Positions 42,547 through 50,864 of a stretch of DNA of 64,000 nucleotides are shown piece after piece. How positions within the stretch are numbered: the stretch's first letter is position 1; each line of letters starts with the position of its first letter. The notes under the pieces are model-generated. The model was not told the DNA's origin and ran no database searches. It saw only the letters and a program-made list of their open reading frames with translations. The stretch is from Giesbergeria sp. (GTDB lineage Bacteria > Pseudomonadota > Gammaproteobacteria > Burkholderiales > Burkholderiaceae_C), in the NCBI GenBank assembly GCA_023150295.1, contig JAKLLE010000002.1:1-64000 (forward strand). Direction: 5' to 3'. A program made the position numbers and the translations under genes.

Positions 42547-42622
42547 GCCGGTGTAGCTCAGTCGGTAGAGCAGCTCATTCGTAATGAGAAGGTCGGGTGT
42601 TCGATTCATCTCTCCGGCACCA
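42547..42622 (+). tRNA. tRNA-Thr (CGT anticodon), attachment site of element 2
   Basis: A 76-nt cloverleaf with anticodon loop TTCGTAA (anticodon CGT) and encoded CCA. The T-stem has two G-U pairs and the acceptor has a U-U mismatch at positions 6:67 (42552 with 42613). From 42575 onward it lies within the 49-bp direct repeat that bounds element 2, so the 3' half of this gene is repeated at 50816. Confidence 0.94.
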
Positions 42623-42623
42623 A
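42575..42623 (+). repeat. attL of element 2 (49-bp direct repeat in tRNA-Thr)
   Basis: The 49 bp from the anticodon stem to one base past CCA are identical to 50816-50864. This is the classic footprint of a tyrosine integrase that recombines within a tRNA 3' half and rebuilds the gene. Confidence 0.93.
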
Positions 42624-42634
42624 TACAGCAAAGG

Positions 42635-42668
42635 AAACCCCGCTATCAATACGGTAGCGGGGTTTTTT
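42635..42668 (+). terminator. Terminator after tRNA-Thr, element side
   Basis: An 11-bp stem (AAACCCCGCTA with TAGCGGGGTTT) is followed by TTTTTT. It lies inside the element, 12 bp after the CCA, and closely matches the host-side copy at 50876. The element therefore brings its own terminator for the tRNA it interrupts. Confidence 0.85.
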
Positions 42669-42673
42669 GTTTC

Positions 42674-42699
42674 CCGTCCGATGTAAGGGCGGATGTAAG
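42674..42699 (+). repeat. 26-bp integrase arm-type repeat, left copy in element 2
   Basis: CCGTCC followed by GATGTAAG-GGCG-GATGTAAG. Identical over 26 bp to the minus strand of 1378-1403, and over the central 20 bp to 50665-50684. Similarity extends a further ten or so bases on the inner side as an ATTTCGG-like string. Confidence 0.7.
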
Positions 42700-42730
42700 A
42701 CGATTTCGGGAATCCCACCCAGCACCAGAC

Positions 42731-42757
42731 AAAAGAAAAGCCCCACGGCGGGGGCTT
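42731..42757 (-). terminator. Terminator ending the element 2 operon
   Basis: On the minus strand AAGCCCC and GGGGCTT pair across a short loop (42738-42757) and are followed by TTCTTTTG. It lies 19 bp beyond the last gene. Confidence 0.7.
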
Positions 42758-42775
42758 CGGTCGGGGGCTTGTGTG

Positions 42776-42994
42776 TCAGCCCGGCGGGTGCATGAATGGC
42801 ATCAGGGCCTTGGCGGCGGCCATGCGCAGGCGCAGCGGCAGGGCTTCATGGTTCATTGCTGCTAAAAGCCATTGCAGCGGGTCGTTTGTCTCAGGCAGGC
42901 CATGCACCAGCACAGGCCGATTGCGTGCGCCTGCGGGCCTTCCTGCGCCTTTCCTGCGGCCTCCCCAGCCGGTCGAACTTGATTGTTTTTCCAT
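42776..42994 (-). CDS. Small phage-type protein with GGRRKGAGRP motif
   Basis: A 72-residue basic protein. The N-terminal GWGGRRKGAGRPAGARN motif is common in small terminase subunits and related phage DNA-binding proteins. The C-terminal half (PLQWLLAAMNHEALPLRLRMAAAKALMPFMHPPG) also recalls such proteins. It is the last gene of the element. It might be a second packaging factor or a helper-interference protein, but its role is not known. Confidence 0.55.
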   Translation of the reverse strand: MEKQSSSTGWGGRRKGAGRPAGARNRPVLVHGLPETNDPLQWLLAAMNHEALPLRLRMAAAKALMPFMHPPG

Positions 42995-43072
42995 GCCCGA
43001 TTTTTTCCGCGAATGAGAAGCAGTGGGGTGTCGCCGGTTCGAGGGTTGTAAGGTTTGACCGTGCCCCCCACC

Positions 43073-43255
43073 CTACGGCACAAGCTCATCAATCCGCGCC
43101 TCTAGCTGGGCAATGTGCGCCTCCATGCAATCCATGCGGGCCTGCAACGCTGCAATGTCATAGCGCGTCACCTGCTCGAACTGTTCGCGCTTGGGTTCCA
43201 TGTGCCTCAAGTAACGCATAACCCCGTCTAGGTTCTGCTCGGGTGTCCGGCTCAT
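43073..43255 (-). CDS. Small coiled-coil protein of element 2
   Basis: A 60-residue protein whose second half is a heptad-patterned helix (YDIAALQARMDCMEAHIAQLEARIDELVP). The start overlaps the stop of the upstream terminase-like gene by 4 bp, implying translational coupling. I do not recognise a family. The 78 bp after it (42995-43072) hold nothing I can name. Confidence 0.55.
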   Translation of the reverse strand: MSRTPEQNLDGVMRYLRHMEPKREQFEQVTRYDIAALQARMDCMEAHIAQLEARIDELVP

Positions 43256-43671
43256 GAGAAATACTCTGCCATTTCGGGGTCACTTTCCCACGGCTTCAAC
43301 CCGCTGTGCAGCGCCTTTTTCAGCCCCGCACTTTCTGGCCTTGTCGTGGCGCTCTTGCACAATCGCAGCTTGCCCGATAGCGCGGCCATTGTTCCCGCGT
43401 ACTGGTTCGATAGCCTCGCAGCGGGGTTAATCGCGCCATCGATGGTGATAGGCCCGTCACGCAGCACCAGCGCATCGCAAAGCCTCTTTTGATGGTCTGC
43501 CATGCACAGCGCCTCGAGTAGCACCATGTCGCCGGTCGAAAAGTAGTTCGCATCCAGCCCGGCGCAGATTGAAACCCACAGCGCAGCAGCACCTGGGGGC
43601 AGGCCATCGGGCGGCGGCGGGCGTTTTGTGTCGAATATGGTTGCCAGTGCGGCGGCGGATTTTCTAGGCAT
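43252..43671 (-). CDS. P27-like phage terminase small subunit
   Basis: About 139 residues. MPRKSAAALATIFDTKRPPPPDGLP followed by AAALWVSICAGLDANYFSTGDMVLLEALCMADHQKRL matches the layout of P27-family small terminases, which recognise phage DNA and recruit the large subunit for packaging. I use the ATG at 43671, which has a GAGGA site; the frame continues upstream with unrelated sequence. With no large subunit in the element, it probably redirects a helper phage's motor, as TerS does in known satellites. Confidence 0.7.
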   Translation of the reverse strand: MPRKSAAALATIFDTKRPPPPDGLPPGAAALWVSICAGLDANYFSTGDMVLLEALCMADHQKRLCDALVLRDGPITIDGAINPAARLSNQYAGTMAALSGKLRLCKSATTRPESAGLKKALHSGLKPWESDPEMAEYFS

Positions 43672-43774
43672 GGTGTGATTCCTCGAAACTACAGGCTTTT
43701 GAACGTAGCTTGGACATGACGGTTTACATATTGGCAGGGGGCAGGTTTTTGCCACCCCCTGCACGCTCAGACAG

Positions 43775-44461
43775 TTAGGCGATAAGCTCCCCCTCGCCTG
43801 GGTAGCTCACACGGGCGGCAAGCTTCGGCACTCGCCTTGGTGCGGCGGCAGCTTCACGGGCGGCTTGCTTTTCGTAAACCTCAACGGGCAGGGCCTTGGA
43901 TGCGATGTAGTCGCCAGCATCACGCGCCCAAGATGGGGCATACCCACCATCAACATCGCGGGTGTCGAAGTAGTCCACACCATGCGGCGTAAAGGCCATT
44001 GCCGGTAGCAGCGTGCCGCTATAGCCCTCCGCCTCGATATTGGCGCGAAACTCCTGTTCGGCCCTGTTCGCGGCGTGCATCTCCTCGACTGCCCGCGCAA
44101 CGCGCGCCACCCGTGCAACATGCTCGCCCACCGCATCGCGACACACCCGGCGCGAATGTTCGCCACGGATGCGCAGCACCTCGCGCTGTTGCAACTCAAT
44201 CGCCCGGCGCAACGCTTCAATCTTGCGCGCAGTCTCGGTGATTCGCTTGCTCAAATTGTCTTGCAGGGCAACGCCAGAAAGCAGCCTATCGGCAAGCTCA
44301 ATCGCGTTCGGCTCAAAGTCTTTGACATCGTGCGCAACGCGCTCGCTGTCCAAATCGTCAGCCAGTTGCCGGGCATCGGTCAGGGCTTCGCGGTAGCTGT
44401 CCAGCTTTGCAACGGCTTCGCGGTAGTCGGCATGGGCGGTGATATTTTTGATTGCTTGCAT
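43775..44461 (-). CDS. Hypothetical helical protein of element 2
   Basis: A 228-residue soluble protein. Residues about 10-150 are long charged helices, probably coiled coil (YREALTDARQLADDLDSERVAHDV; ITETARKIEALRRAIELQQREVLRIRGEHSRR). The C-terminus is less ordered (GYSGTLLPAMAFTPHGVDYFDTRDVDGGYAPSWARD). I do not recognise the family. It sits between the nuclease and small terminase genes, so a DNA-packaging or scaffold-like role is possible but unproven. Confidence 0.6.
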   Translation of the reverse strand: MQAIKNITAHADYREAVAKLDSYREALTDARQLADDLDSERVAHDVKDFEPNAIELADRLLSGVALQDNLSKRITETARKIEALRRAIELQQREVLRIRGEHSRRVCRDAVGEHVARVARVARAVEEMHAANRAEQEFRANIEAEGYSGTLLPAMAFTPHGVDYFDTRDVDGGYAPSWARDAGDYIASKALPVEVYEKQAAREAAAAPRRVPKLAARVSYPGEGELIA

Positions 44462-44474
44462 GGGGCTCTTTCGT

Positions 44475-44669
44475 TTAGATGATTTTGGTGGTGACGTTCT
44501 TAACCAGTGCCACTACGGCGCGGCGCTGTTCGGTGGTGAGATTGCGCGGCATGAGTCCGCCACTGTTGGCAACGCCTACAGCGATTTGTTCCGCCTTGGC
44601 TTGCTCAAACTTCGCCAGTGCTGCGGCCACTGCGGCGGGCGGTTGTTGCCCGGATGATTTTTGGTACAT
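44475..44669 (-). CDS. Small hypothetical protein of element 2
   Basis: A 64-residue protein, Ala/Gln-rich in the first half and basic in the second (MPRNLTTEQRRAVVALVKNVTTKII). It is 13 bp upstream of the 228-residue helical protein in the same operon. No family recognised. Confidence 0.5.
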   Translation of the reverse strand: MYQKSSGQQPPAAVAAALAKFEQAKAEQIAVGVANSGGLMPRNLTTEQRRAVVALVKNVTTKII

Positions 44670-44717
44670 GGCTGTCTTTCAAAGTTGGTGAATGAACGGA
44701 TGCGGTGCGGCGGTTTG

Positions 44718-45089
44718 TTATGGGGCTTGCGCCTCGCCCAAGGTGCGCAACACATCGCGGCAGTCACGCGCCACAAAGGCCACGCCACCAGCGCAGCGGA
44801 TGCGCTCCAGGAATAGGGCTTGCTCAGGGCGCAGGCGTCCGGCCTGGGCTTTCACTTCCACACCCAGCAAGCGCCCATCCTTCAATTGCCCCAGCACATC
44901 AGGGCAGCCCGGCCAGCCGAAACGGATAAAGCGGTTGCCCACCCGTGCGGCTCCGGTGTTCATGCGCTCGGCCCATGCCACGGCGGGATGTGCTCTCAGT
45001 GCCTTCAAGACTTCCACCAGGGCGGCAGCCTCGGGGCGGCTGTTGGTTCTGGGGTTCTGTTGCTCCAGGCCGAAAAGGTCAGCAGTCAT
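44718..45089 (-). CDS. VRR-NUC domain nuclease
   Basis: A 123-residue protein that is one VRR-NUC domain of the PD-(D/E)XK superfamily. The catalytic core is visible: GWPGCPDVLGQLKDGRLLGVEVKAQAGRLRPEQALFLERI, with the Asp of PD and the E-x-K of VEVKA, then the typical GVAFVARDCRDV ending. Stand-alone VRR-NUC proteins are common in phages and satellites and may act on branched DNA during replication or packaging. It follows the primase gene after a repeat-rich 115-bp gap. Confidence 0.85.
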   Translation of the reverse strand: MTADLFGLEQQNPRTNSRPEAAALVEVLKALRAHPAVAWAERMNTGAARVGNRFIRFGWPGCPDVLGQLKDGRLLGVEVKAQAGRLRPEQALFLERIRCAGGVAFVARDCRDVLRTLGEAQAP

Positions 45090-45204
45090 TGCAAAACCTC
45101 CCCACCGTAAACCCCTCCGAAAACCACCCCCCTATTAAAGGGGGGGCGGAGAATTTCGGCGTCGGAAGTCTCCGAAAACGGAGAAAACGGAGAATTTCGG
45201 CGGC
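45090..45204. other. Repeat-rich gap after the primase gene, candidate replication origin
   Basis: It contains a 15-bp direct repeat CGGAGAATTTCGGCG at 45147-45161 and 45188-45202, the inverted pair TCTCCG/CGGAGA at 45169-45184, and a 6-bp C/G stem with an AT loop at 45127-45145. Satellite origins commonly lie next to the primase gene and contain such iterons, hence the suggestion. A packaging signal or attenuator would be alternatives. Confidence 0.45.
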
Positions 45205-47199
45205 TCACTGTTGCCATAGCCACCCCTCATTGCAGCCCAGCACACCACGCGCCACCAGCCCCGTGATTGCCTCTCTGGTGCGTGAAGTTCGTTTGTCAGT
45301 CGGGCATGTCAGCTTGGATGCTGCGGCAGTTATCGCGGCCTCCAGCTCTATACATGGGCGCAGCGGCGGGGCTCCTGGCTTGCCGGTTGTTCCGTCTTTG
45401 AACATCGGGCGCAGGGCATCCAAAATCACCCGCTGATTGCCACCCTGGGGCAGCTTCACGGCGCGCACGTCCTGGGCTGCGGTATCACGCACCACCACGC
45501 ACGATGTAATGGCCTCGCCGGTCGGCTCAGTGCCCAGCACCTCCACGGCCAGCTTGAACGGGCAAGACTCGCCATCAATGCCGTCTTTGGATTTCGCCAC
45601 CTTCCATTCCCGGCGGTCGCCTTCGCGTGAAACCTCGATTGCGGCATCCATCGCAGCGAATAGCGAACTGTGCCCACGCAGGCCAGCGGCGGCATTCTTG
45701 CCCGTGTGGTGAACCAGCACCACCAGCCCACCGGTCAGGGTTTGCAGGGTCTTTGCTGCCTCCAGAATCTCGCCCATGTCGCGTGAACTGTTTTCGTCGG
45801 CAGTGGGCGCGGCGCGGTTCAAGGTGTCCACCACCACCACAGCACCAGCAGGCACCACGGCGGCAAGGTCTAGCACGTCCTGCCCATCGGTCAGCTTGAA
45901 CGGTTGCAGCATCATGCGCAGGCCGTCAGGCAAGGCCCGGCCCCGGCTGGTCTCCCATGCCTGGGCGCGCAGCTTGAAACCCGCTTCACCCTCCAGCGCG
46001 GCATACACCACGGGCGCAGCTTCCACCCGGCAATCAAACCAGCGTTGCCCCTCGGCAATGGATGCGGCCATATCAAAGGCCAGGAATGATTTACCGGATG
46101 CGCTCGGGCCATACAGCGCAGCAAGCCCCACGGCAGGCAGCACACCACGCACACGCCACGCCAGCGGGGGCAGGTCACGCAGTTCATCAGCCCCCAGCAG
46201 CTTGTAACGGGGCTCAGGCTTGGGCGGCTCTGTCGCAGCCTCCAGCAGCGCAGCCAGCACATCGTGCCCGTCACGCTGCGCAAGGTCGTTTGCGTCGAAG
46301 TTCTGCGCCTCACCCTGGGGCATGTAGGCCACGGCGCATTGCAGCGCCTGGGCAATCTCTGCGGCGCTTTCTTCTTTGCCCACATCAGGCACCAACACCA
46401 GCCGGGCGGCGGCGTCACGCTGGCGCAGGGCTTCGGCCACCTTGCCCACATTGCCCCAGCCAAAGCACGCCACGGCAGGATGCCCGGTAGCCTGCCAGCA
46501 AGCCCATGCAGTGCCCACACCCTCGCACAAAGCCACGGGCGCACCGGGCACCAGCGTGCCCACGGTGAAGGATGCCCCGGCCATCGGCGCACCGGGCAGG
46601 TTCAGCTTGGGCTTTTTCCCCTTCGCCTTCAAGCGGGCGGCAGTGTCGCCAGTGGTCACGCATTGCAGGCTCTGCAAACTGCCATCGGGCGCAAAGGCGG
46701 GCACCACCAGCGCCCCGGCCATGCTCTCGCCTTGGATGCGCAGCGGGTCACCAGCAGGCACCACGCGCAAGGCATCCAATGGCACCCCGGCGGCAGCTTT
46801 TGCCACGATGTAGCCATGTGCAGCGGTTGCAGCTTCGCAGCGTTCCCACACCTCAGCAGGGCTCATGCCTGGGGCGGGCTTGCGCTGGGGTTCTGCTGCC
46901 TTCCTGGGGGCTTGCACGGGCCTTTGCTGGGGCTTGCCTTCACCCATGCGCCACCCATGTTCTGCGCCCACGCGGTACAGCGTTCCAGGGCCAATACCCT
47001 TGCCCGGCTTGAAACTGCGCCACGTATCGCGGGCGTCGCGTTCGCTGTAGTTGCCAGCCCCGGCGCTCCATTCGTTGAACGTGTCGAAATCAAGGCCAGC
47101 AGCTTGTGCAGCCATGCCCACCTTCACCCATTCATCACGCGGCAAATCGGGCGGGATGGCGTGCAATGCGTCGATTGCTTTTGCGGTGTCGGTCAGCAC
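45205..47199 (-). CDS. Primase-helicase (PriCT-2, Toprim, RepA-like ATPase)
   Basis: A 664-residue replication protein. The N-terminus (residues about 10-75) is a PriCT-2-type primase C-terminal module (PRDEWVKVGMAAQAAG...YSERDARDTWRSFKPG). A Toprim domain lies near 210-290 (CEGVGTAWACWQATGHPAV...LVLVPDVGKEE). From about 345 comes a RepA-like AAA ATPase with Walker A GPSASGKS and Walker B-like VVVVDTLNR. This layout suits initiation and unwinding at an element-encoded origin. Its start overlaps the preceding gene by 7 bp. Confidence 0.88.
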   Translation of the reverse strand: MLTDTAKAIDALHAIPPDLPRDEWVKVGMAAQAAGLDFDTFNEWSAGAGNYSERDARDTWRSFKPGKGIGPGTLYRVGAEHGWRMGEGKPQQRPVQAPRKAAEPQRKPAPGMSPAEVWERCEAATAAHGYIVAKAAAGVPLDALRVVPAGDPLRIQGESMAGALVVPAFAPDGSLQSLQCVTTGDTAARLKAKGKKPKLNLPGAPMAGASFTVGTLVPGAPVALCEGVGTAWACWQATGHPAVACFGWGNVGKVAEALRQRDAAARLVLVPDVGKEESAAEIAQALQCAVAYMPQGEAQNFDANDLAQRDGHDVLAALLEAATEPPKPEPRYKLLGADELRDLPPLAWRVRGVLPAVGLAALYGPSASGKSFLAFDMAASIAEGQRWFDCRVEAAPVVYAALEGEAGFKLRAQAWETSRGRALPDGLRMMLQPFKLTDGQDVLDLAAVVPAGAVVVVDTLNRAAPTADENSSRDMGEILEAAKTLQTLTGGLVVLVHHTGKNAAAGLRGHSSLFAAMDAAIEVSREGDRREWKVAKSKDGIDGESCPFKLAVEVLGTEPTGEAITSCVVVRDTAAQDVRAVKLPQGGNQRVILDALRPMFKDGTTGKPGAPPLRPCIELEAAITAAASKLTCPTDKRTSRTREAITGLVARGVLGCNEGWLWQQ

Positions 47200-47567
47200 G
47201 CGGCACCCCCATTCATCGCCAGGGCTTGCGCGGTGTATTTCGGGTCAAGTCGGTACAGCGCAATGATGCGGTCGGGGCTATGTTCCGTGGGGCTTGGAAC
47301 CTCGATAGTTTCCACGGGCCAGCCCAAGGTGCGCAGCGTGAAAATCACGGCACCCAGTCGCCAGGATTGCGTGCTGTTCTCGAAGTCGGGATGGTCAATC
47401 AGGCGGCCATCCATCAACATGCCCAGCGCCTTATCGGCAAGGGTTCCACGCTGGGGCCATGTCGGGCAAAATGGCGGGGGCGGCAGAAACGAAAGTTGTT
47501 CACCGTGGGCCCCTTGCGTCTTGGTCGGTGCGGGGGCCTTTCCATTTTGGGTACTGATTTTTTTCAT
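47193..47567 (-). CDS. Hypothetical protein, possible winged-helix
   Basis: A 124-residue protein. After a Pro-rich N-terminus it has a segment that could be a winged helix (LADKALGMLMDGRLIDHPDFENSTQSWRLGAVIFTLRTLGWPVETIEV), which resembles helix-turn-helix proteins often found beside phage primases. It overlaps the primase start by 7 bp, so it belongs to the replication operon. The assignment is tentative. Confidence 0.6.
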   Translation of the reverse strand: MKKISTQNGKAPAPTKTQGAHGEQLSFLPPPPFCPTWPQRGTLADKALGMLMDGRLIDHPDFENSTQSWRLGAVIFTLRTLGWPVETIEVPSPTEHSPDRIIALYRLDPKYTAQALAMNGGAAC

Positions 47568-47579
47568 CGTCAGTGGCCC

Positions 47580-47912
47580 TCAGAATGGAATCGTTTCGTC
47601 ATCGCCAAACGGCGCTGATTTCAAAGGCTCTTGCGGCGTCCACGGTTCCAGCGTGTCATAACCTTTCAAGCAGCGGGCGGCCTCTTTCAGAATTGCGCGG
47701 GCGTGTTCAGGTGTTACCCCGGCGCGGATAAATATCGTCACTGACGCGTCAAACATGCAGGCGGTATCAGGCTCTATGTGCAGCCTCAATTCGTCATATT
47801 CAACGGCGGTTATCTTTGCGAAACCCAGCGGCTTGTAGCGCGCTGTTTGCTCCAGGCAGTCACCCAGCGAACCGATAGACGGGCGCTCAACAGGTTGTTG
47901 ACGGCGGCTCAT
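47580..47912 (-). CDS. Hypothetical protein of element 2
   Basis: A 110-residue acidic protein with no recognised domain, no signal and no membrane segment. Its ATG overlaps the stop of the AlpA-like gene by 4 bp, and it lies 12 bp before the next gene, so it is in the alpA-primase operon. Confidence 0.6.
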   Translation of the reverse strand: MSRRQQPVERPSIGSLGDCLEQTARYKPLGFAKITAVEYDELRLHIEPDTACMFDASVTIFIRAGVTPEHARAILKEAARCLKGYDTLEPWTPQEPLKSAPFGDDETIPF

Positions 47913-48151
47913 ACTGCCACCCCCAGCACGCGGCGCAGTTCCGACACGTTCCAGGCCAAACGGCCATTAATGCGGATGGGGCGCAGCGGCCCGTTTTCCA
48001 TGCAGGCCCAGCCCCTAAGGGTTTGCGGGCGGCGGCTCAGGTAATAGGCAGCGGCGGCGGTGTCCACTGCGGGGCGGGTTTCATGCGCCAGCGGGGGAAA
48101 TTTCGGGGCGGTCGCTTGTTCGCGGGCCTCGATACTGTGAAGGGCTTGCAT
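47909..48151 (-). CDS. AlpA/excisionase-like DNA-binding protein
   Basis: An 80-residue protein with a MerR/excisionase-type helix-turn-helix: VDTAAAAYYLSRRPQTLRGWACMENGPLRPIRINGRLAWNVSELRRVLG has the typical strand-turn ending in an R-hydrophobic-W pair. AlpA proteins in satellites activate excision and replication genes. It is the first gene of the replication operon, directly downstream of a 164-bp repeat-bearing gap. The assignment as AlpA-like is by motif and position. Confidence 0.75.
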   Translation of the reverse strand: MQALHSIEAREQATAPKFPPLAHETRPAVDTAAAAYYLSRRPQTLRGWACMENGPLRPIRINGRLAWNVSELRRVLGVAV

Positions 48152-48315
48152 CGCAGTTTGCTTTCAACCCAGCAGCACGGGCTAGGTATGGGCGAACTTT
48201 GAAAACCCCGTATCTATGCGAATTGCCCCGGGGTTCTGGAATCAAGCATCCATGCGGGTTAGCGGCGCATTGCCACCTTAAATCCGGGGTTCACCCCCGG
48301 GGTTCTGACAGTGTT
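48152..48315. promoter_or_regulatory. Control region upstream of the AlpA-like gene, with GGGGTTC repeats
   Basis: CCCCGGGGTTCTG occurs twice (48226-48238 and 48295-48307), with a shorter CCGGGGTTC at 48284-48292 and a related AAAACCCCG at 48212-48220. The gap separates the 294-residue gene from the alpA-primase operon on the same strand, so it is a likely promoter/operator region and a second candidate origin. Confidence 0.45.
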
Positions 48316-49200
48316 TTAAGGCGTATCGAAGTTGTCAGCTTCGTAGGTTTTCCACGCTTCCAGCCAGTCTTGTAGCTGCGGCTTTGTCTGGAACCTTGCG
48401 CGGATGCTGTTCGCCTTCGCGTGACCGTTATGCACCAGCGCAGCACCGATAAGAACAGGGTTCCAGCGGGTCTCCCTTTTACCTCGCTCTCCACGCAACG
48501 CAATACAAGCCTCAAGCCACTTTGGCGGGCTTCCTAGCGTGTCTTTCCATGCCTTCTCATTCCACCTTCGCAGCCCATCAAACGCGTGTGCAACATCGCC
48601 CGTTGTCACCGGCTGCGGTGCATCCAATGGCGCATTGCTGGCGCTGTCTGCCACCACGGGCGCTGCGGCCTGGGGCTCGGCTTGCTTTGCTTCGGGTGCG
48701 GTGTATTCATCAGCCAGGGCGTGAACGTCATAGCCCACCACGCGGCAATCAGCGGGCACGGTTTCAAAGTCGGGCTCATCATCGGCCAGCATGCCCTTTG
48801 TGTAGCGCATCAATATCCCGTCGCGTTCATCGAACCCGTCGAACGTGCGCCAGGATGCCCGGCCAGCGTTCGCTAGGTGCTGGCAGGCGGAAAGCGGCAA
48901 CGTTGGGATGGCACCAGCAGGCACGATGTTTTCATTGGGTTCACCCTTGTTGAATAAAACCCCGCCGTCATGTTTGCGCACCTTTGCGGCACGGTGAACG
49001 ATGGCCCTTAGCGTTATCTCGCCACGGGCAGCAGCTCGCAGAAAATCGCCAATGGTGACGGGCTCCCCGGCGTGCTTCGTTGCCATGCTTGCGGCCTCTG
49101 CCAGCGTCAAAACATCGGTGTCAACCATGCGGCCACCTGCCCACGGCGTGCGGGGCTCCAGGCGCGAGAACATGGGCGGGAAATATTGAATCTTGGACAT
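48316..49200 (-). CDS. Hypothetical protein of element 2
   Basis: A 294-residue protein that I do not recognise. The N-terminal part (about residues 28-75) could be helical DNA-binding (TLAEAASMATKHAGEPVTIGDFLRAAARGEITLRAIV). Then comes a mixed region, an Ala/Pro/Glu-rich linker near 165-200, and a C-terminal helical region (WNEKAWKDTLGSPPKWLEACIALRGERGKRETRWNPVLIG). It lies next to the integrase and upstream of the alpA region, the place where satellites keep regulators. Confidence 0.6.
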   Translation of the reverse strand: MSKIQYFPPMFSRLEPRTPWAGGRMVDTDVLTLAEAASMATKHAGEPVTIGDFLRAAARGEITLRAIVHRAAKVRKHDGGVLFNKGEPNENIVPAGAIPTLPLSACQHLANAGRASWRTFDGFDERDGILMRYTKGMLADDEPDFETVPADCRVVGYDVHALADEYTAPEAKQAEPQAAAPVVADSASNAPLDAPQPVTTGDVAHAFDGLRRWNEKAWKDTLGSPPKWLEACIALRGERGKRETRWNPVLIGAALVHNGHAKANSIRARFQTKPQLQDWLEAWKTYEADNFDTP

Positions 49201-49304
49201 GGCACCCCTTCAAGTGCAGCCTTCATTGGGTGCCCCAGCAGGTCGGTGAAGGTGTCCGACTTTTCGGCAGGATTGCGGCCCTGCCTAGCTGGGGCAAAAC
49301 TGTT

Positions 49305-50633
49305 TTACGCGGCTTGCACCACGCGCAGCGCACCGGGCGCGGCCTTGGCATCAAACTGCACACCGGCAAGGCTCAGAATGTGCGCCTCTATCTGTTCCAG
49401 AAACGGGCGCAGGGCGTCAATACTTCGCGGCCTGTAGCCCTCGGCTGTTGCGCTTGGTTTGTGGCCCATTACTTGCGCGATAGCCCCAGCAGGTGCCCCG
49501 GCAGCCTCACCCAGCAGCGAAAAGGAACGGCGCAGTCCGTGGATTGTCAGCCCCTCGATTGCAGCGCTTTGCAGGGCCTTTGCATGGCTGTTGCGGGTGT
49601 CTGTAATGCGCCCTGCCTTGCCCGTGCTGGCAAACACATACAGCCCCACTCTGGGCAGCGTTGCCAGCATGTGCGCCATGTATGGGCTCAGGGGAATGGT
49701 TCGGGTTGTTTCCACCTTGTCGGCAATGGTCAGCTTGCGCCATTGAAAATCCACATTCGCCCAAGTCAGGGCGGCCAGTTCTTCACGGCGGGCACCAGTC
49801 AGCAGCAGGGCGCGCAGATAGGCGCTTGCGGTGCGGTTGCTCAGTTGTTCCACACCAGCCCACCAGCCGGGCACCTGGGCGGCTTCTAGGGCGTCGGTGC
49901 GGCGGGTGTTGCTGGGAAGGTTCTCGACAATGGCGGCGGCCTTGCCTGCATCGCGGTCTGTCAGGTTCCGATACTCGGGGCGGGCAGCACACCAGCGCAG
50001 GAAACCACGGAACATCATCAGGGCGCGGGCAGCTTGGTGCTTACCGGCCACGGCTTCCCGGTCATACCAGCTTTTCAGCGTGTCCTCATTGATGGCGGCC
50101 AGCGGCAGCGCCAGCAGCGGATACAGCGGCCCCGGCCTTGTCGCGCCCTGCCCTCGCTTCTTCTTCTCGCCACCGGGCGCGGCCATAGCTTCAAGGTCGG
50201 CACGATAGCGGGGCTTCCATGCGTCTTTGCGCTTGGGTCTGCCGTTTTCCAGATACAGCGGCCACACCTCGCCCACGGTCAGGGCAGCGGCCTTGTCAGC
50301 TTCCACCTTGGCAGCGGCAGCGGCTTGCTTTTTGACTTGCGCGGCGATGGCTTCGCGTTTCAAGTCTCGGGGGTCTTTGCCTTCATCAATCAGGCGTTGC
50401 AGTTCGCGTGCCTTGGCTTGCGCGTCTGGAATGCTCCAGGCGGCAGGGCTCCCGATGGTTATGCGCAGGTCTTTACCTTGGTACACGCTCTGGAACACGT
50501 AGGCGGGTTTCCCGGCAGGCGTTGCGCGCAGCCCTAGCCCCGGCGCGGTCACATCCCACAGAAAAGCCTGTTTCTTCTCGGGCGGGCACTTGAACCCAGA
50601 TACCCGGCCAGCGGTGAATGCAATCTTTGCCAT
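49305..50633 (-). CDS. int: Tyrosine-type site-specific integrase
   Basis: A 442-residue phage-type integrase. The N-terminus has the DUF4102-like arm-binding domain (AFLWDVTAPGLGLRATPAGKPAYVFQSVYQGKDLRITIG), then a SAM-like core-binding domain, then the catalytic domain. The R-H-x-x-R-H-Y set is complete: R in LLTGARREELAALTW, HGLRRSF, GHKP and EGYRPR. It acts at the tRNA-Thr attachment site 183 bp away and is transcribed from attR into the element. Confidence 0.93.
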   Translation of the reverse strand: MAKIAFTAGRVSGFKCPPEKKQAFLWDVTAPGLGLRATPAGKPAYVFQSVYQGKDLRITIGSPAAWSIPDAQAKARELQRLIDEGKDPRDLKREAIAAQVKKQAAAAAKVEADKAAALTVGEVWPLYLENGRPKRKDAWKPRYRADLEAMAAPGGEKKKRGQGATRPGPLYPLLALPLAAINEDTLKSWYDREAVAGKHQAARALMMFRGFLRWCAARPEYRNLTDRDAGKAAAIVENLPSNTRRTDALEAAQVPGWWAGVEQLSNRTASAYLRALLLTGARREELAALTWANVDFQWRKLTIADKVETTRTIPLSPYMAHMLATLPRVGLYVFASTGKAGRITDTRNSHAKALQSAAIEGLTIHGLRRSFSLLGEAAGAPAGAIAQVMGHKPSATAEGYRPRSIDALRPFLEQIEAHILSLAGVQFDAKAAPGALRVVQAA

Positions 50634-50650
50634 GTGGTGCCCCTTGCGGT

Positions 50651-50686
50651 CTTACATCGGTCAGGATGTAAGGGCGGATGTAAGAC
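50651..50686 (+). repeat. Integrase arm-type repeats next to int
   Basis: CTTACATC at 50651 (inverted), then GATGTAAG at 50665 and 50677 separated by GGCG. The 20-bp core is the same as at 42680-42699 and 1378-1397 (minus). It lies between the int start and attR. Confidence 0.65.
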
Positions 50687-50815
50687 TATTTGCCGAAAAA
50701 TGCCGAATTTCAATCAACGCCTTGTCTGGGTTTTTGCCCAGTAAATCGCTCATAAGCTGTTGATTTATATTGATTCTATCAGCACCAATCAACGGTGGCA
50801 AATACACCTATCCCA

Positions 50816-50864
50816 TCATTCGTAATGAGAAGGTCGGGTGTTCGATTCATCTCTCCGGCACCAA
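50816..50864 (+). repeat. attR of element 2 (49-bp direct repeat)
   Basis: Identical to 42575-42623. It represents the 3' half of tRNA-Thr from the anticodon stem onward and has no 5' half, so it is not a tRNA gene. Confidence 0.93.

Follow-up and report, generated by a model that had tools for sequence, protein, structure and literature searches.

What kind of mobile element has settled in a tRNA-Thr gene of a Giesbergeria species, and does it depend on phages for its spread? The element is an island of 8.24 kb on contig JAKLLE010000002.1 (assembly GCA_023150295.1), of which we analyzed positions 1 to 64,000 of the forward strand; this stretch of 64,000 nt is called the window below, and all positions refer to it. 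We read the island as a phage satellite resembling the phage-inducible chromosomal islands (PICIs), and give this reading a probability of roughly 0.7. It is drawn from the gene set and its order, the layout on one strand, the attachment (att) site in a tRNA gene, an origin-like block, an empty site in the same genus, and a broad family of related islands without virion gene sets. The layout and the points after it in this list also bear out a preliminary description of this DNA, which had called the gene set satellite-like.

Island boundaries and the empty site

The island is, by its boundaries, a site-specifically integrated element. Its two identical 49-bp repeats are 8,241 bp apart, and the likeness is still 90% across 100 nt that include a terminator-like hairpin. 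A 48-nt pattern derived from the repeats occurs at these 2 places only in the 3.69-Mb genome, and its reverse at 0, in agreement with the preliminary description, where an 8.3-kb island with 49-bp repeats at tRNA-Thr had been given the same coordinates. Gene calling of the window gave 12 island genes, all on the minus strand: a tyrosine integrase, an AlpA-like winged helix-turn-helix (wHTH) protein, a PriCT/Toprim/AAA_25 primase-helicase, a VRR-NUC nuclease, a P27-type small terminase (TerS) and seven others, among them u60 and u72 at the tRNA end, two genes additional to those listed before. The features, in order of position, are:

42547-42622, plus strand: tRNA-Thr(CGT), intact, bearing the first att repeat in its 3' half
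42575-42623, plus: att repeat, tRNA copy, from repeat comparison and the genome pattern count
42680-42706, plus: tandem GATGTAAG, arm-type sites for the integrase, within the tRNA end; 26 of 27 nt recur at 50665-50691
42776-42994, minus: u72, short TerS-like protein, last gene; phrog_641 TerS, 3.2e-8, over profile positions 83-125 of 162
43073-43255, minus: u60, overlapping the TerS stop; identical in Ramlibacter (locus L003)
43252-43671, minus: P27-type TerS, 139 aa, from a conserved ATG; a longer frame begins at 43764
43775-44461, minus: u228, long coiled coil in a single-sequence model; relatives in L035, L039 and L045
44475-44669, minus: u64, also present in L035 and L039
44718-45089, minus: VRR-NUC nuclease, by Pfam and PHROG profile matches
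45090-45204, minus: origin-like block, two exact 15-nt repeats plus the CCCCCCCTTTAATAGGGGGG palindrome
45205-47199, minus: PriCT_2/Toprim_3/AAA_25 primase-helicase, by Pfam
47193-47567, minus: u124, weak winged-helix match, conserved beside the primase
47580-47912, minus: u110, from comparison with other elements
47909-48151, minus: AlpA-like wHTH regulator or excisionase; phrog_66, 0.0032
48316-49200, minus: u294, conserved, between integrase and AlpA
49305-50633, minus: tyrosine integrase with arm-binding domain; PF00589 5.8e-13, Arm-DNA-bind_3 4.8e-11
50649-50691, plus: integrase arm-type sites, two direct copies and one inverted
50816-50864, plus: distal att repeat, matching the tRNA copy in 49 of 49 nt

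The integrase, the PriCT/Toprim/ATPase protein and the VRR-NUC nuclease that had been proposed earlier on one strand were recovered by Pfam and PHROG matches, the nuclease slightly below its Pfam cut-off (23.3 vs 23.8 bits) and with matches to phrog_93 (2.4e-14) and phrog_5702 (3.8e-12). The AlpA-like protein and the P27-like TerS of the same proposal are also present, by profile matches that are weak for the former and moderate (PHROG) for the latter. As had been proposed as well, the island appears to be without virion genes: a PHROGs scan of all 12 proteins gave none that was convincing. The structural names that came up besides terminase, a head-tail adaptor for u60 (E 0.034) and a minor tail protein for u124 (0.47), are both at chance level, as are the remaining PHROG matches of the uncharacterised genes. 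Relatives of u110 were not found among 18 other elements compared, and a structure model of u294 was unusable (mean predicted local confidence, pLDDT, 38).

It is in the same-genus genome G141 that the site is seen empty, with the tRNA gene followed directly by the window's right flank at 78-79% identity. Of 20 loci retrieved around this tRNA from genomes of the genus, two show the window's right flank, the second being G403, where it follows after about 84 unaligned nt. The same 20 loci include an island with TerS and a capsid gene (G399), an island with an 87%-identical integrase (G413) and an AlpA relative (G406). An extra copy of the tRNA end (at least 45 nt) is present in 10 of 26 genomes of the genus, the island's own included. 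Two consecutive att-bounded stretches occur at the same tRNA-Thr on contig C14 of G354 (L058 and L109). Prophages with a PF04860 portal were found in 4 of the 26 genomes, none of them on the contig with this tRNA-Thr, a count that concerns draft genomes and one portal family.

Tandem GATGTAAG arm sites lie inside both island ends and are common to the window island and a sister island that the genome carries at tRNA-Met. The window has 4 copies of the motif GGATGTAAG where 0.18 would be expected, and 1 of these copies lies outside the island. Among 14 loci scanned, the exact tandem was found in the sister island (L035), in L088 and in one further place held twice (L069 and L077), with a variant in L037; 9 of the 14 had none, including L039 despite an integrase 79% identical to that of the window. 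The genome holds four related integrases, those of the window, L035, L107 (with arm sites) and L108; near the last two (G000:C122 and G000:C45, respectively) only the integrase matched, and no other island gene.

The island family and its replication module

Relatives of the primase at E<=1e-30 are present in 35 of 399 genomes of the family and in 30 of 141 genera, the own genome included. In a sample of 369 genomes of the class, 2 have such a relative at E<=1e-40, and one of these is the own. Eight relatives are bounded by att repeats:

L035, 8.1 kb, tRNA-Met
L037, 7.3 kb, tRNA-His
L038, 9.7 kb, tRNA-Phe
L045, 8.4 kb, tRNA-His
L048, 7.5 kb, tRNA-Met
L049, 7.5 kb, tRNA-Asn
L054, 11.4 kb, tRNA-Thr
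L063, 10.9 kb, tRNA-Thr

Besides integrase and primase, 65 genes were called in these eight. A PHROGs scan of the 57 that encode 55 aa or more matched one TerS family (phrog_57) and, at E<=0.001, none for head, connector, tail or lysis proteins. Three of the scanned genes match the transcriptional repressor phrog_4268 and two the toxin-labelled phrog_3445. The one-strand layout is also found in the att-bounded relatives, with the exception of L049, which has two opposite open reading frames inside its att ends. Identity to the window is mosaic, as in L039, where the 49-bp repeat is also held twice (one copy of 48 nt) and where the integrase is 79%, the primase 58%, VRR-NUC 90% and u124 90% identical. 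A P2-like prophage, suggested by relatives that seemed to run into portal, terminase and scaffold genes, was discarded when better gene calling and Pfam gave hrcA, nadK, recN, rapZ and mutY, i.e. the chromosomal flanks.

The sister island (L035:6872-15061, on G000:C119) is inserted at tRNA-Met beside hrcA. Compared with the window its integrase is 60% and its primase 61% identical, and the N-terminal part of u294 84%; arm sites, u64 and u72 are common to both, and a P27 TerS is not found in it.

The primase is recognised through AAA_25 (2.8e-36), PriCT_2 (3.6e-16) and Toprim_3 (7e-6; 26.8 vs a cut-off of 27.2 bits, thus slightly below). Directly 3' of it, between primase and VRR-NUC, lies the origin-like block, and in the relatives the iteron letters vary while a CCC-(AT)-GGG core is kept. 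Such a palindrome was found within 250 nt 3' of the gene at 13 of 26 primase loci compared with 4 of 178 other genes of at least 200 aa (Fisher 1.7e-10); of 29 loci, 3 were set aside because a contig ended close by, and the set includes two fragments (L042 and L047) and a doubtful member from L039. Among homologues unseen when the motif was chosen, 8 of 21 had the palindrome (3 of 11 plus 5 of 10 fresh ones; 1.5e-6). Both Fisher values are overstated, since the loci share ancestry and do not count as independent. To make the window match, the AT run allowed in the pattern was lengthened once, from 3-6 to 3-8; the narrower form gave 11 of 26 loci against 3 of 225 genes of at least 150 aa. Five of the held-out homologues with a palindrome (L027, L029, L032, L034 and L105) are only 31.6-35% identical to the window primase. 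We suggest that the palindrome may be a general origin element of this primase-helicase replication family.

In 11 of the 26 loci the following 150 nt hold more repeated 8-mers than any shuffle does; the window is one of these, with 16 against at most 4. A terminator is less likely for the window palindrome because no T-run follows. Three results speak against an origin: half of the loci have no palindrome, the predicted fold of the strand is just slightly more stable than that of shuffled sequence (z -1.9), and outside the palindrome core ungapped pairing is modest (3.15 of 7 vs 2.09 elsewhere and 1.75 by chance).

The packaging zone and the search for a helper

TerS probably starts at the ATG at 43671, an internal start that the relatives favour over the 170-aa GTG start. 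It matches phrog_83 (1.1e-8) and phrog_12559 (2.7e-5), and was found in three genomes: that of the window, Ramlibacter (L003) and Comamonas granuli (L004). Counted by sample, it is present in 2 of 399 genomes of the family and 1 of 399 of the order, the own included. The L003 and L004 proteins are each 91% identical to the window TerS. In both, an HK97 capsid gene precedes TerS (PF05065, 3.3e-37 and 1.1e-12), and these capsid proteins are 26% identical to each other; with so conserved a TerS beside them, the capsid gene acts like a cassette that has been exchanged. Its position is taken by u64 and u228 in the window. TerL (large terminase), portal and protease genes were not recognised in L003 or L004.

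The L003 island measures about 9.3 kb by a 15-nt repeat and carries an integrase, a different primase, the capsid gene, TerS, u60 and u72; a second integrase-bearing stretch with a 34-nt repeat (L003:11360-16935) adjoins it at tRNA-Ser. L004:744-7706 is a truncated island, in which a deletion has left a C-terminal primase fragment directly next to SpoVR, DUF444 and PrkA genes.

u228 is modelled with a helix over residues 40-145 (mean pLDDT 69.9, predicted TM-score 0.34) and is a candidate for interference or for a capsid function. Capsid redirection of the Sid type is still a guess here, as a viral fold library gave no match at E<=0.001 and PHROGs chance-level ones (0.19 and 0.4).

u72 covers positions 83-127 of the 162 of phrog_641, the C-terminal part, and is present in seven distinct islands. 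The TerS of a same-genus HK97-type prophage (L104), which stands beside TerL, portal and capsid genes, covers positions 1-138 of the same family, and direct profile comparison of the two gave 93.5% (E 2.4e-7, 33 columns). u72 also matches nearly the whole of phrog_15261 (99 positions, no assigned function). Of six u72 relatives scanned, 3 match weakly phrog_18735, a TerS family of 101 positions (E 0.0065-0.0089), and u72 may therefore itself be a complete, short TerS. From these likenesses we infer that u72 would recruit or block the TerL of a helper.

HK97-type prophages with TerS, TerL, portal, protease and capsid genes were seen at L104:7000-12800 (G141) and L099:6248-12346 (G412). Prophages of this kind are a possible helper type, the G141 TerS being the one that resembles u72. 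The P27 TerS of the G412 prophage (PF05119, 3.4e-16) gave no useful alignment with the window TerS. For the L003 capsid there were matches in 44 phage records, with identity under 60% throughout and under 30% in the 25 listed. Scans of IMG/VR with primase, TerS, u228 and u72 confirmed nothing.

Weighing the readings against known satellites

A number of points weigh against a satellite. The AlpA-like identification consists of weak profile matches and is weak by itself: HTH_17 was found in 9 of 18 family members, the window's own copy being without it, and the family profile gave chance matches only in the PDB. TerS falls below the P27 cut-offs (Pfam 15.7 vs 24.7 bits, NCBIfam 13.5 vs 45.6 bits). 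Relatives of the primase are not confined to satellites; partial matches to it came from 560 phage records, none over 80% of its length. The palindrome motif was picked after viewing 15 loci, of which 10 were judged to fit the final pattern, and then scored, and it is missing from 13 of the 26 loci. TerS and u72 had no match in 50,697 phage records, the own genome gave no match to the PF04860 portal or PF03354 TerL (other phage types not having been searched), and a comparison of the window island with four HK97-type prophage regions of the genus gave no common segment at E<=1, the best match of any island to these being that of L035 (E 0.003). Gram-negative PICIs are given as about 12-15 kb (PMC6092414) or 10-20 kb (PMC10111431) in the accessible text of these reports, larger than the window island, whose eight relatives measure 7.3-11.4 kb; their primase is of another type; and damaged Thr-tRNA fragments are reported for them (PMC10111431), whereas the distal fragment here is undamaged. 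Since typical size and primase type differ, and induction and packaging are predictions here, we do not file the island strictly as a PICI.

The alternative that survives best, unlikely in our view, is a self-replicating integrated element that is moved by chance through generalised transduction or transformation, and whose TerS and u72 only disturb infecting phages, as a defence. No helper came out of the searches run, and the restriction of TerS to L003 and L004 besides the window means that the whole family does not need it, both as such an element would have it. However, u72-type TerS-like genes recur in seven distinct islands, the position of TerS beside a capsid gene in two relatives suggests packaging and not defence alone, and PADLOC (10 of 12 proteins) had no match except that of u228 to a coiled-coil JetC region (0.0077).

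Less probable still is a prophage in decay, stripped of its virion genes but still with integrase, replication genes and TerS. The preliminary description had named virion genes in relatives as the sign of such decay, and the relatives divide on it: the two that share TerS carry one HK97 capsid gene each, and the eight att-bounded ones have no head, tail or lysis match among 57 scanned genes. Those capsid genes, the phage relatives of primase and integrase and the truncation of L004 itself would suit decay. A capsid gene does not mark it, however, since 21 of 29 reference Gram-negative PICIs have one (PMC10111431), and it was dispensable when tested (PMC10111431, PMC6092414), as far as the available parts of these sources go. 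Capsids of such low identity beside a near-constant TerS look like exchanged parts and not like a common relic; many independent islands of 7-12 kb at different tRNAs share the same compact open gene set without virion genes, in one-strand order; and, apart from the capsid gene that L003 and L004 have, further virion or lysis genes were not found among the 12 proteins of the window island or the 57 scanned genes of the att-bounded relatives. An integrative mobilisable element that spreads by conjugation, which size and tRNA integration would fit and at which a sub-threshold RepB_primase match of the L003 primase hints (23.7 vs 24.3 bits, a plasmid family), is highly improbable given no relaxase match by Pfam (10 of 12 proteins) or PHROGs (12 of 12; weak evidence from a phage library) and a TerS without known conjugation role.

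Read from its genes alone, the phage satellite would work like a Gram-negative PICI, as one of a separate lineage that redirects the terminase of its helper. By analogy with PICI biology the helper phage would switch on the AlpA-like protein, which together with the integrase at the arm sites would excise the island as a circle. The primase-helicase would start replication at the iteron and palindrome block, and VRR-NUC would process junctions in the replicating DNA. TerS, u72 or both would then bring the helper large terminase to island DNA, to be packed in particles made by the helper, with u228, u64 and u294 as candidates for capsid or regulatory interference.

We would go further only tentatively, at a little under even odds, and propose a separate, undescribed satellite lineage centred on Comamonadaceae. 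Its hallmark would be the PriCT/Toprim/AAA_25 primase with a palindrome-plus-iteron origin, and its packaging zone would mix two small-terminase kinds, a near-constant P27-type TerS beside an exchanged capsid gene or u64-u228, and the TerS-tail-like adaptor u72 that brings in the helper TerL; one genome would hold two such islands with common arm sites and different tRNA targets. What is new here is the origin-like block 3' of the primase, the arm sites common with a sister island at another tRNA, and the TerS-like u72. If true, a PICI-like life style would be present, with a replication module of its own, in a betaproteobacterial family that is common in the environment; the origin, the arm sites and the two terminase-like proteins would be testable parts, and the natural series of islands with exchanged packaging zones would make it possible to study how satellites select or switch helpers. 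No paper pairing "phage-inducible chromosomal island" with "Comamonadaceae", and no description of such an element in that family, was found in the open literature covered, which matches the earlier statement that no satellite of this layout was known there; subscription papers and preprints were outside the search, so absence from print is not shown.

Capsid-forming PICIs (cf-PICIs) carry capsid, portal, protease and TerL genes of their own. The capsid gene with TerS in L003 and L004 is alike, with no full capsid assembly set recognised there, and none of the cf-PICI set was found in the window island by Pfam and PHROGs. The minimal Vibrionaceae satellites called PICMI (PMC10803314) share with the window island a core of integrase, AlpA and primase in a very small element; they differ in DUF3987/DUF5906 primases, a type to which the window primase does not belong, in a prototype beside fis, and, within the accessible text, in a prototype for which no TerS was found. 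Closest are the Gram-negative PICIs, in which the order of integrase, replication module and master regulator is conserved (PMC6092414). The class is further described by att sites that prophages never use, by genes found in PICIs only, and by phage-dependent induction, interference and packaging. Like EcCICFT073 and PmCI172 (PMC6092414, PMC10111431), the window island has integrase and AlpA-like genes first, then a replication gene bordered at its 3' side by iterons, a late zone with TerS (some PICIs have TerS or a capsid gene), one transcription direction and a tRNA site, and has no convincing phage structural or lytic gene. It differs in the CCC-(AT)-GGG palindrome, the P27-type TerS plus u72, and a betaproteobacterial host, the accessible account of the 2018 set listing Gammaproteobacteria throughout. 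Published PICI origins have iterons 3' of the replication gene that flank an AT-rich stretch (PMC6092414); the window block fits in place and repeats, with a GC palindrome around an AT core instead. Rpp of E. coli PICIs (PMC6739421) is, in the part of that report drawn on here, a small protein that acts on the helper small terminase and turns packaging towards the island, whereas u72 resembles TerS itself (the C-terminal part of phrog_641); set beside Rpp by description and not by sequence, u72 is proposed to do a similar job.

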